From assembly GCA_002084705.1 (NCBI GenBank), contig NBLX01000004.1, positions 1-43,971 of the forward strand: a DNA stretch of 43,971 nucleotides, in the 5' to 3' direction. This document shows, one piece after another, positions 1 through 31,287 of the stretch. The DNA is from Desulfobacteraceae bacterium 4572_35.1 (lineage in GTDB: Bacteria > Desulfobacterota > Desulfuromonadia > Desulfuromonadales > Desulfuromonadaceae). The notes beneath the pieces were generated by a model. It saw only the letters and a program-made list of their open reading frames with translations, made no database searches and had not been told where the DNA came from. The position numbers and the translations under genes are program-made. How positions within the stretch are numbered: the stretch's first letter is position 1; every line of letters begins with the position of its first letter.

Positions 1-396
1 GTAAGTTTTCTCTATCAGCCGCTTACTGAACAATCCAGCATAAGCGCTGCGTGTCTGCGGATTTGTGGAAAACATTACCAGCCCAGCGGTGTGACGATCA
101 ATGCGATGTAGTGGCACAATATTGTCATTACCTGTAGCTGCACGCAAACGATACACCAAACATTGTTTAACGAAGCGTCCGCCGGGAGTTACCGGCAAAA
201 AGTGCGGTTTACACGCCACCAACAAGTGATCGTCACGATATATAACCTCCTCCTGAAACGGTATCACCACTTCATCTATAATTTCACGGAAATAAAATAT
301 AGTCTGCTGGGGGAGATAAAGACAATCTGCTTCGAGAGGACAAGGTGTCGCCACCTGGGGCAACACCAGTTTGGATGGATATTCAGCTATAGACAT
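1..396 (-). CDS. RluA-family RNA pseudouridine synthase (N-terminal part, cut by window edge)
   Basis: The minus-strand frame from the ATG at 396 stays open to the first base of the window, giving 132 residues of an incomplete protein. It contains HRIDRHTAGLVMFS near residues 98-111, which matches the catalytic HRLDRxTSGL loop of RluA-type synthases, with the catalytic Asp at the D of RIDRHT. Before it is the usual IYRDDHLLVACKP strand and a PVTPGG turn. The family isomerises uridine to pseudouridine in rRNA or tRNA; the target cannot be told from this fragment. It starts 12 bases after the selenoprotein gene, so the two are probably cotranscribed. Family membership is secure; the subfamily and the C-terminus are unknown. 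Confidence 0.85.
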   Translation of the reverse strand, partial: MSIAEYPSKLVLPQVATPCPLEADCLYLPQQTIFYFREIIDEVVIPFQEEVIYRDDHLLVACKPHFLPVTPGGRFVKQCLVYRLRAATGNDNIVPLHRIDRHTAGLVMFSTNPQTRSAYAGLFSKRLIEKTY

Positions 397-407
397 GGCA
401 CCATTAG

Positions 408-668
408 TCACTCAGCAAGTTTTTCATCCAGAAACAGTCTCATCTTCTCTTTGTCCGTCGCCACATCAATTGGCAGCGCAACTTGTTCAAAAAGAACATT
501 TGTCGAACTTCTGAAATCATATTTTTGTGCCTGGGGTGAATCTGTGGTGTAAATATTCAACTCAATCTTCTCACCAAATATTTTTTTCATCTCTTCGGCT
601 ACAACTATAGCCTTACGACATGAAACTCAGTTAGGATTTCCACTGTGAAAAACAACTAGCTCTGCCAT
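408..668 (-). CDS. Thioredoxin-like selenoprotein with UxxC motif, TGA read as selenocysteine
   Basis: Reading starts at the ATG at 668, 7 bases after a GGGGG ribosome-binding site. Codon 14 is TGA (629-627), and the same frame continues to a normal stop at 408, for 86 residues. The context is SGNPN-U-VSC-RKA: Sec14 and Cys17 form a UxxC redox motif placed between a hydrophobic strand (ELVVFHSG) and a helix, as in thioredoxin folds. Further on, a strand (IELNIYTTD) and a VALP segment fit the beta-3 and cis-Pro region. A two-stem hairpin directly after the TGA looks like a bacterial SECIS element. A conventional call would start at the ATG at 590 and lose the redox motif. The gene lies between panE and rluA; its substrate is unknown. 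Selenoprotein status is inferred from frame continuity, motif and hairpin; the thioredoxin-like fold is inferred from the strand and motif order. Confidence 0.82.
585..629 (-). promoter_or_regulatory. SECIS element following the in-frame TGA codon
   Basis: In the minus-strand RNA the TGA (629-627) is followed at once by TTTCAT (625-620), which pairs with ATGAAA (590-585). Inside this lies an internal loop, then a perfect 5-bp stem GGCTA/TAGCC closed by the six-base loop TAGTTG (612-597). A lower stem beside the UGA, an internal loop and a small apical hairpin with G and U in the loop, about 17 bases downstream, is the layout bound by bacterial SelB. The structure was found by eye and its energy was not computed. 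Confidence 0.75.
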
Positions 669-725
669 TTTAGCCCCCTTTTCGTTGTTAAAAAGTCTGT
701 CAAAATCTATTCAGCACCTCTCGCA

Positions 726-758: not shown

Positions 759-1667
759 TCATTCTCCAATATCGAGGAGTGCAAAGAGCATCTCCACGCG
801 GGGCATGCTGACACCTGACTGACGAGCATATTGCAACGGAACAGCATAAATTGCTTCCAGCTCCAGCGCCCTACCCTCCGCACGATCAATCATCATACTT
901 GGCCGATAATGGTCCATCTCCTCGGTAAACTCGATCAATTGCTGGCTGAATTGTGCGGCGTCTATGGGGATATCAATAGTTTGTGCATTAGCCGCGGCAA
1001 TCACCTCCAACATTAGTTCTCTGACCAGGTCGTTACTCCATGGATGGCTTAAAATTTCGGTAACATCTTTTCCCAGCAGAGCAGCCAAGCCGTTAAAAGG
1101 GATATTCCATACCAGTTTTTCCCACCGAGCACGGCGCAAATCGGCAACAGCTTCACACTGCACTCCGGCGTTGTTGAACATCGTCGCCAAATCTTTACTT
1201 CGCTGACTTAGGCCGCCATCGTACTCGCCTAAACGGATCTCGCCAGCACCTAAATGGTGTACATTGCCCGGCTCGCCACGGTTGCTGCACAAAAAGGCAA
1301 CGCCACCAAGAACGCGTTCGGCACCAAATTCCTCTGCCAGCAATTCTTCATTACCCAGCCCGTTCTGCAAGGTCAAGATAGCTGTTGAGTCTCCGATCAG
1401 CGGGCGCACCAGATCAAGCATATACTGATTAGAAATAGTCTTCAACCCCACCAGCACCAGATCAACTTCACCTATTTCGCCAGTATCACGATAAGCGGAC
1501 AGTGTTGGTAGATGAAAATCACCATTACAGGAATGCACATATAAACCGCCAGTGCTAATCGCCAAGTAATCACGGCGCAGCAAAAAGTGAACATCCTGAC
1601 CACTACGCTGCAGCAGCGCTCCATAATACAAGCCAAGGGCTCCGGAACCAACAATGCCGATTTTCAT
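759..1667 (-). CDS. panE: 2-dehydropantoate 2-reductase (ketopantoate reductase)
   Basis: The protein reduces 2-dehydropantoate to pantoate with NADPH in coenzyme A biosynthesis, in the cytoplasm. It opens with MKIGIVGSGALGLYYG, the N-terminal dinucleotide-binding GxGxxG. It carries VGLKT and a QNGLGNEE loop typical of the ketopantoate reductase N-domain. The C-terminal helical domain contains RWEKLVWNIPFNGL, with the Lys and Asn of the catalytic site. I chose the ATG at 1667 (302 residues) because GAGGGGG lies about 8 bases upstream; a longer reading from 1712 would add 15 unrelated residues. The gene follows the SH3-domain protein by 25 bases. Relatives of this family act on other 2-keto acids, so the exact substrate is likely rather than certain. 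Confidence 0.88.
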   Translation of the reverse strand: MKIGIVGSGALGLYYGALLQRSGQDVHFLLRRDYLAISTGGLYVHSCNGDFHLPTLSAYRDTGEIGEVDLVLVGLKTISNQYMLDLVRPLIGDSTAILTLQNGLGNEELLAEEFGAERVLGGVAFLCSNRGEPGNVHHLGAGEIRLGEYDGGLSQRSKDLATMFNNAGVQCEAVADLRRARWEKLVWNIPFNGLAALLGKDVTEILSHPWSNDLVRELMLEVIAAANAQTIDIPIDAAQFSQQLIEFTEEMDHYRPSMMIDRAEGRALELEAIYAVPLQYARQSGVSMPRVEMLFALLDIGE

Positions 1668-7840: not shown

Positions 7841-8386
7841 ATGGATCTATTTGAAACATTAAAAAAAAGACATAGCTACCGTGGCTCAATGACCAAACAA
7901 AAGGTTCCCAGAGAAGATCTACGCACCATCGTTCAGGCCGGCATTATGGCTCCCTCTGGGAAAAATGCCCAGACAACTGAATTTATAATTATCGACAAGC
8001 CTGATCTTATCGACAAGCTCAATAAGCTTCATCCGGTCAATACTGCCATGCAGCAGGCACAAGCGATGATCGCCTGCATTATAGATAAAGAACCAGAAAA
8101 AATATACTCAGGCTACGATTTTCAGCTGGAAGATTGTGCCGCCGCAACAGAAAATATGCTTCTGGCAATTACAGCACTCGGTTACGCCAGCGTCTGGATC
8201 GATGGCTGGTTACGCATGGACAAACGTGCCGACACCATCAGCGCATGGCTTGATTTGCCACCTAGCAAGAAATTGCAGATTTTACTTCCCATAGGCAAAC
8301 CGCTAGAATCATGGGCACAAAAAGAGAAGAAAACATTTAAAGAAAGAGCACGCTTTAATTCTTACACTTGTACTGAGGTGAACTAA
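7841..8386 (+). CDS. Nitroreductase family protein (FMN oxidoreductase)
   Basis: The 181-residue protein has the nitroreductase start RHSYRGSMTKQKVP (equivalent to the RRSxRxF phosphate-binding part of the FMN site), APSGKNAQTTEF (the APSxxNxQPW motif), and ENMLLAITALGYASVWIDGW in the dimer-forming C-terminal half. Enzymes of this family reduce nitro compounds, quinones or flavins with NAD(P)H; the substrate here is unknown. GAGGT lies 7-8 bases before the ATG. Its stop codon directly abuts the ATG of the thioredoxin gene, so the two are cotranscribed. Confidence 0.88.
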   Translation: MDLFETLKKRHSYRGSMTKQKVPREDLRTIVQAGIMAPSGKNAQTTEFIIIDKPDLIDKLNKLHPVNTAMQQAQAMIACIIDKEPEKIYSGYDFQLEDCAAATENMLLAITALGYASVWIDGWLRMDKRADTISAWLDLPPSKKLQILLPIGKPLESWAQKEKKTFKERARFNSYTCTEVN

Positions 8387-8833
8387 ATGAAAAAAACTCG
8401 ACGCATAATTATTATTGCACTACTGTTGTTTCTTCCCACATTAAGCGTTGCGTTGGATACAAATTGGGGAGATGACCTAGATCACGCAAAAATTGAAGCC
8501 AAAAAAAGTGGCAAACATATATTCATCAATTTCAGCGGTTCGGATTGGTGCCACTGGTGCATAAAATTAGAAAAAGAGGTGCTGAACACAGACGAATTTA
8601 AACAGTTCGCTCAGGACAATCTGGTTCTGGTAAATATAGATTTTCCTAAAAGGAAAAAACTGCCAACCGAACTGGCACAACGTAACGATGACCTTGCCAG
8701 CCATTACCGTGTCCGCGGATTTCCTACAGTGATAATTCTTAACCCCAGCAGCGAGATTGTCACCAAAACCGGCTATCGCAAAGGTGGGGCCGCAGCATAC
8801 ATCAAATATCTGAGAAAGATAATTTCCCAATAA
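8387..8833 (+). CDS. Periplasmic thioredoxin-like protein (thioredoxin_7 type)
   Basis: The 148-residue precursor has a lysine/arginine-rich start, a hydrophobic stretch and a cleavage-like LSVAL site near residue 23, so it is exported. The mature part has DLDHAKIEAKKSGKHIFINFSG, then SDWCHWCIKLE with a CHWC redox motif, and a cis-Pro segment GFPTVIIL near residue 117. It probably acts as a thiol-disulfide oxidoreductase or as an electron donor in the periplasm. It starts immediately after the nitroreductase stop, with GAGGT within the end of that gene serving as the ribosome-binding site. Confidence 0.88.
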   Translation: MKKTRRIIIIALLLFLPTLSVALDTNWGDDLDHAKIEAKKSGKHIFINFSGSDWCHWCIKLEKEVLNTDEFKQFAQDNLVLVNIDFPKRKKLPTELAQRNDDLASHYRVRGFPTVIILNPSSEIVTKTGYRKGGAAAYIKYLRKIISQ

Positions 8834-11311: not shown

Positions 11312-11379
11312 ATGCCCTTTTCTTTCCCAGAATCTGTCTATATTTCGGTCTTGTGCCGTAAAACCGAAACTCACTTTTC

Positions 11380-11545
11380 AGGCAGGTCTTCTGACTTCTG
11401 GATCAATCAAATCATTGCGCCTTCCCATCCAAACTTCAAACAGTGGCATTATGCAATAATTGTCCCCAGTTACAGCGGCGGGCCCGTTCCGGATTTACAC
11501 CGGATTCCCTTTTCATCCGCTCAAAGCGGACACCTGAAAAAATTC
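11380..11545 (-). promoter_or_regulatory. Cobalamin riboswitch controlling cbiK and the porin
   Basis: The minus-strand RNA has the conserved order of cobalamin riboswitches: GGGAATCCGGTGTAAATCCG, then the core GGGCCCGCCGCTGTAACTG, GCCACTG, GGGAAGGC and the B12 box AGTCAGAAGACCTGCC ending near 11381. A terminator lies between it and the cbiK start, so binding of a cobalamin should reduce expression of cbiK and the porin. Boundaries are approximate. Confidence 0.93.
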
Positions 11546-11550
11546 ACGCC

Positions 11551-11579
11551 ACCCTACAAAGAGTAACGGTCAATGTCAA
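11551..11579 (-). promoter_or_regulatory. Sigma-70-type promoter for the cbiK-porin unit
   Basis: On the minus strand TTGACA (11579-11574) and TAGGGT (11556-11551) are separated by 17 bases, placing the transcription start near 11544 at the 5' end of the riboswitch. The -35 box overlaps the stop codon of cobA. This gives cbiK and the porin a transcript separate from the upstream cobalamin genes. Confidence 0.65.
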
Positions 11580-31104: not shown

Positions 31105-31252
31105 GACCACCCGAATTCATACTCCGCGAAATTCAGATGGTTTTGACTTTAAGGGAAAGAGTATCTGACTTCCGAAATAACTTCCGGTCACAGTGGCGGG
31201 TCCGCGATGGTTTTGCACCATCTTCCTCTAATCTCCTGTCGATTTAATAATT
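31105..31252 (-). promoter_or_regulatory. Cobalamin riboswitch controlling the cobT-cobS-cbi operon
   Basis: The minus-strand RNA has GATGGTGCAAAACCATC, then GCGGACCCGCCACTGTGACC and the box GGAAGTCAGATACTC. An ATACTC/GAGTAT helix follows. The shortened layout, lacking the GGGAAGGC segment of the other riboswitch, resembles class II adenosylcobalamin riboswitches. The terminator at 31046-31082 is its likely expression platform. Boundaries are approximate. Confidence 0.88.
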
Positions 31253-31258
31253 TCGATC

Positions 31259-31287
31259 ATTAGAAATGAAAAAGTCTTATACTGCAA
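31259..31287 (-). promoter_or_regulatory. Candidate promoter for the cobalamin operon
   Basis: On the minus strand TTGCAG (31287-31282) and TCTAAT (31264-31259) are 17 bases apart, just upstream of the riboswitch. The match to the sigma-70 consensus is moderate, and neighbouring A/T-rich sequence offers alternatives. Confidence 0.4.

Follow-up and report, generated by a model that had tools for sequence, protein, structure and literature searches.

The window, by which we mean the whole 43,971 nucleotide stretch of Desulfobacteraceae bacterium 4572_35.1 DNA analyzed here (contig NBLX01000004.1), carries a small minus-strand gene, tsoX, whose reading frame is crossed by an in-frame TGA (Table 1). 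Upstream lies a gene resembling those for 2-dehydropantoate 2-reductase (panE) and downstream a fragment of an RluA-type pseudouridine synthase gene. An earlier sequence-only reading had drawn attention to this frame, and its coordinates stand: the frame opens with the ATG at 668, meets the TGA as codon 14, and continues for 72 further residues. The good ribosome-binding site proposed ahead of this ATG is also present, as a Shine-Dalgarno site within AAAAGGGGGCTAAA, the letters preceding it. The 'normal stop' claimed for the frame holds in that a stop codon ends it, but that codon is itself a TGA. Elsewhere in the window, two cobalamin riboswitches score over the gathering threshold (11364–11552, minus strand, 124.9 bits; 31143–31267, minus strand, 38.9 bits).

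Table 1. Features of the tsoX locus and its two neighbors, in window coordinates.
Feature	Position	Strand	Basis or remark
RluA-type pseudouridine synthase fragment	1..396	-	downstream neighbor, cut by contig end; TIGR00005 52 bits, cut-off 192.7
tsoX	408..668	-	86 residues, Sec at position 14; translation, NF045809 score, alignment
Stop codon TGA of tsoX	410-408		
UxxC of TsoX (Sec14, Cys17)			
bSECIS apical hairpin GGCUAU-AGUU-GUAGCC	597..612	-	folding, pair counts, published bSECIS rules
In-frame TGA (selenocysteine)	627..629	-	TGA kept in 28/29 copies; selenium machinery in genome
Shine-Dalgarno-like AAGGGGGCT	672..680	-	upstream of ATG 668, read from sequence
2-dehydropantoate 2-reductase-like (panE)	759..1667	-	upstream neighbor, ATG taken at 1667; NF004887 387.5 bits, cut-off 360

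The window (44 kb) contains 42 frames of at least 86 codons that have an ATG start and cross exactly one TGA. Because frames of this kind are so common, the bare pattern proves nothing, and we rejected it as evidence for recoding. The 668–408 frame rises above chance because its family match runs across the TGA, the TGA is conserved in other genomes, and a hairpin follows it. We conclude that 668–408 is a genuine small gene, with its internal TGA almost certainly read as selenocysteine.

The family search that the sequence-only reading had called for identified the 86-residue read-through protein as a match to NCBIfam NF045809, 'HSGNPxU motif (seleno)protein TsoX' (134 bits, cut-off 52, E 1.2e-39). 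This match, which exceeds the curated cut-off, spans the Sec codon and covers profile positions 2–82 of 82. The motif in the window copy reads HSGNPNUVSC – that is, HSGNPxU plus a later cysteine that completes UxxC. A Pfam scan of the protein gave no meaningful match, the best hits being to unrelated families (best E 0.08). A 2026 review (PMC13188914) lists TsoX under NF045809 with the UxxC motif; it gives Haft & Tolstoy 2025 as the source and spells out Tso as 'three selenoprotein operon'. Since TsoX is already catalogued, the find is not new in kind: the window gene belongs to a described family and adds a member to it.

Searching genome contigs with the single protein returned one relative, a 61% identical copy in a Desulfobacteraceae MAG (L024) that was retrieved by plain sequence similarity; profile searches were richer. 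A phylum sample yielded TsoX above the cut-off in 21 of its 395 genomes and a class sample in 7 of 277 (own genome counted in both), giving 26 different genomes together. All 27 members of the resulting alignment match NF045809, an agreement that is partly by construction because 25 of them were retrieved with that model. Two genomes of the window's class encode two TsoX copies each: G531 (L079, 869–1147 and 14214–14480, plus strand) and G589 (L080 and L083, on contigs C23 and C13).

Among the 29 copies read, which count the window and L024, the Sec codon is TGA in 28 (27 of 28 outside the window) and TTA in the remaining one. An ATG stands exactly 13 codons before the Sec codon in 25 of the 29 copies and a GTG in one, though the script that assigned starts favored the start nearest this distance and the other three copies have an unclear or cut-off start. 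Phe7, His8, Gly10, and Cys17 are invariant in the 27 aligned rows, and Pro66 is nearly so. Homologs do not begin at the internal ATG at 590, an arrangement that the sequence-only reading had named as refuting its case: they have (V/L)FH(S/T)G in common upstream of that position, along with the Sec codon. The same reading had proposed a search for homologs with cysteine at position 14, and here it found nothing, as none of the 29 copies over the family cut-off is a Cys version (28 TGA, one Leu). Four thioredoxin-like proteins from the phylum sample (L046–L049) do have cysteine at the site, at 21.5–23.5 bits and thus below the cut-off. The TTA (Leu) copy, L075 155–412 (plus strand), retains the hairpin and comes from a genome with selA; its TTA means either that Sec was lost recently or that the sequence is in error.

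We observed the machinery for selenocysteine insertion in the same genome (2.33 Mb in 166 contigs, 87% complete, 4.8% contamination). A tRNA-Sec on contig C71 scores 68.5 bits, over its cut-off, and SelA (611 bits), SelB (386), and SelD (368) are each represented by one match over the curated cut-off, their genes lying in a row on contig C143. Binning assigns C71, C143, and the window to one organism. The sequence-only reading had made its proposal depend on these genes, and tRNA-Sec, selA, selB, and selD are all there. The selD gene, which follows selA and selB (L084 6764–7828, plus strand), has an in-frame TGA of its own (SAGU), a usual Sec-containing form of SelD. SelA is also present in 23 of the 25 other TsoX-carrying genomes; it was not found in G581 (94% complete, 7% contamination) or G435 (90% complete).

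The SECIS-type hairpin that had been proposed right after the TGA is borne out by folding and by covariation. In the window it consists of a 6-bp stem and a 4-nt AGUU loop with G at loop position 2, the loop lying 20 nt past the TGA, and its minimum free energy (MFE) is −16.3 kcal/mol, a value that none of 200 dinucleotide shuffles reached (z −5.06). Published bSECIS rules, as printed in the review, specify a loop of 3–9 nt, an upper stem of 4–16 bp, a G among the first two loop nucleotides, a loop 16–37 nt after the UGA, and an MFE of at most −7.5 kcal/mol (PMC13188914). The window hairpin falls within all of the constraints printed there. A predicted loop at +20 that has a G among its first two bases was recovered for 23 of 30 rows. 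In the other seven (L057, L065, L071, L076, one L079 copy, L077, and L082) the predicted fold places the loop elsewhere; four of these (L057, L076, the L079 copy, and L082) contain the same stem letters and favor a rival fold. L024, L064, L065, and L075 fold more weakly than the published −7.5 kcal/mol rule.

The hairpin 20 nt past the TGA covaries. With 27 distinct sequences compared, 96.3% of the pair cells are formed, and sliding the partner by 1–3 columns lowers pairing to 18–54%. Two-sided changes occur in 9 cells against a shuffled mean of 1.7, with none of 500 shuffles reaching 9; the number of pairs with a two-sided change is 2, a value reached by 59 of 500 shuffles. These covariation numbers are inflated by the relatedness of the sequences. 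In the best covarying pair (columns 21–30), which has 7 two-sided changes, both partners are third codon positions.

To describe the fold, we used an AlphaFold2 model built on the 27-row alignment with Cys substituted for Sec (pLDDT 95.5, pTM 0.85). The model comprises a strand (2–8), a helix (15–34), two further strands (35–41 and 56–60), and a C-terminal helix – a beta-alpha-beta-alpha-beta core whose first helix has the redox pair at its N-terminus, as in a thioredoxin fold. Its nearest PDB folds are thioredoxins or thioredoxin fusions or complexes, with a TM of about 0.7 over the query. In alignments made with the family profile, position 14 falls on residue 32 of E. coli thioredoxin variants, at modest E-values (best 2.8e-5); residue 32 is the attacking cysteine of E. 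coli thioredoxin. Modeled strand 2–8 and this alignment agree with the earlier proposal that the residues before the TGA supply the first strand and that the TGA supplies the first redox position. The natural reading is that TsoX would act as a Sec-x-x-Cys oxidoreductase.

One locus points to an electron donor. In L077 (6597–7808, plus strand; genome rated 93% complete, 9% contaminated), the TsoX frame runs into a thioredoxin-disulfide reductase with no stop except the Sec TGA. The TsoX part scores 92 bits and the reductase part 385 bits to TIGR01292 (cut-off 343; open frame 432). A trxB-like ORF also lies within about 2 kb of tsoX in L058 (a 161-residue partial ORF) and in L081 (on the opposite strand), so that TrxB-like genes are near or fused to tsoX at only 3 of 27 loci. 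The L077 fusion and the nearby genes in L058 and L081 suggest that thioredoxin reductase (TrxB) is the electron donor of TsoX.

Our computations show that the protein belongs to the family, that its Sec codon is conserved, and that a SECIS-type hairpin and the machinery genes are present; they also supply the modeled fold and the active-site register. We hold with considerable confidence that TsoX is a thioredoxin-fold selenoprotein with a Sec-decoded UGA and a Sec-x-x-Cys center, most likely reduced by TrxB, a step inferred from the L077 fusion and the trxB-like genes in L058 and L081. The product would be an 86-residue, presumably cytoplasmic protein. With the downstream hairpin as guide, tRNA-Sec and SelB would decode UGA codon 14 and so place a Sec-x-x-Cys redox center where helix 1 begins, in lieu of the Cys-x-x-Cys of thioredoxin. 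By the chemistry expected of such a center, Sec14 would attack an oxidized or electrophilic substrate, Cys17 would resolve the adduct as a selenenyl-sulfide, and the Sec14/Cys17 pair would then be reduced, most likely by TrxB.

We next considered what the surroundings of tsoX say about its role. We analyzed 27 neighborhoods – 26 stretches of other genomes plus L024, several on short contigs and with the window excluded – counting a neighbor if the middle of its ORF lay within 4.5 kb of the motif. Of the 27, 9 have ArsR/SmtB-type genes and 10 have methyltransferases, followed by DnaJ-type genes (5), TsoA-like genes (4), PNP-type phosphorylases (4), TsoY-like genes (2), and MbdU-like genes (2). 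When individual neighbors were scanned with family models, one TsoY passed (417 of 250), one TsoA and one MbdU – both partial ORFs – fell below the cut-off (132 of 170 and 356 of 600, respectively), and two of seven ArsR-type neighbors passed the TsoR cut-off. Because ArsR/SmtB regulators, methyltransferases, TsoA/TsoY, and MbdU lie near some tsoX genes, one might speculate that the substrate of TsoX is connected with metal(loid) or organo-metal stress.

The same neighbors could be read differently: TsoX would not be a thioredoxin-type reductase but would bind or carry metal(loid)s or organo-metals through its selenium and sulfur, working alongside the neighboring methyltransferases and ArsR-type regulators. 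The frequency of those two gene types is consistent with such a role, as are the two neighborhoods with genes resembling MbdU, named as a metal-binding double selenoprotein, even if the one scanned is below its model cut-off. We nevertheless regard a ligand or carrier as unlikely, given the thioredoxin fold, the Sec and Cys at redox positions, the nearly invariant Pro66, and the natural fusion frame to thioredoxin reductase; both genes adjoining the window tsoX are, moreover, of other kinds.

Around the window tsoX we did not encounter a Tso-gene neighborhood, which is not known to be a defining feature of the family. Searches of its genome (87% complete) for TsoA and TsoY gave no match, and control genomes gave none either; a search for TsoB reached 59 bits against a cut-off of 805. 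Within the window, 8384–8752 (plus strand) is a weak match to the TsoB C-terminal part (41 bits, well short of the cut-off) and has one TAA inside, a likeness that perhaps reflects general thioredoxin-fold resemblance.

We did not find tsoX in the nine same-genus and four other same-family genomes searched, some of which are incomplete. The neighboring panE is common to eight of the nine same-genus genomes (60–65% identical) and was not found in the ninth, G003, or in the four other same-family genomes. Its presence in those eight speaks against the contig being a contaminant, a possibility we had considered. In a tree built on an alignment of only 88 columns, the rows nearest to the window copy by path are L061 (family f65), L024, and L068 and L067 (both f65); the window copy joins the last two at a support of 91/71, short of the mark for strong support. 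A clade of the window and own-class copies without L078 was rejected (p-AU 0.0008), in a test that was somewhat favored because L078, an own-class copy also placed elsewhere, was dropped after the first tree. The tree position of the window tsoX suggests lateral acquisition, which is the likeliest reading of these sequence comparisons. A more tentative proposition, to which we give slightly less than an even chance, is that TsoX serves as a dedicated selenol thioredoxin with TrxB as its reductant and can also function away from the Tso operon, as in this genome, in the form of a laterally mobile module that stands on its own.

The window copy could alternatively be decayed, with the locus no longer translated. 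This would accord with the missing tsoX in the nine same-genus genomes, with the position of the window copy at a contig end without Tso-type neighbors, and with the TTA at the Sec codon of L075. Against decay, the frame, ribosome-binding site, UxxC, and hairpin are all intact in the window, the family score is high, and the genome retains Sec machinery, leaving this reading quite improbable. Hardly credible is a gene confined to the 60-residue ORF from ATG 590, with the codons and TGA upstream untranslated: a plain table-11 ORF list does give this ORF for the locus and it scores 80 bits by itself with the TsoX model, but it covers only profile positions 26–82 and lacks strand 1, as the sequence-only reading had said of it, and the UxxC center, whereas the residues before ATG 590 are conserved in 27 aligned copies (including L082, which a contig end truncates), with the TGA in this stretch as widely kept as Table 1 records.

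In its main points the sequence-only reading is correct. These results confirm a recoded gene, which a plain table-11 ORF list gives in truncated form, as 60 residues. The expectation that automated calls would truncate or miss it is right for that list and wrong for the curated NCBIfam model, which recognizes even the truncated ORF. For the TsoX family, our analyses add a modeled fold, the register of the active site, and a SECIS-type hairpin that covaries. Beyond family membership, the useful additions are the TsoX–TrxB fusion, which makes thioredoxin reductase a testable electron donor for the family, and the free-standing window copy.

Among known systems, the window protein is closest to TsoX itself (NF045809), with which it shares the full-length match, HSGNPxU/UxxC, Sec at residue 14, and the SECIS-type hairpin. 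Some TsoX relatives have Tso-type neighbors; the window copy is instead flanked by panE and the RluA-type fragment. Two other thioredoxin-like families match weakly and far below their cut-offs: the HUIPC motif thioredoxin-like (seleno)protein NF047660 (E 0.009, 16 of 105 bits) and the MJ0307 family thioredoxin TIGR00411 (E 0.003, 18 of 92.75 bits). The letters around the TsoX Sec, GNPNUVSC, differ from the usual thioredoxin active-site letters. Compared with E. coli TrxA (2trx and variants), TsoX is shorter, is about 22% identical, and has Sec for the first Cys; the modeled TsoX fold matches that of thioredoxin at a TM of about 0.7, and Sec14/Cys17 of TsoX are in register with residues 32/35 of TrxA.
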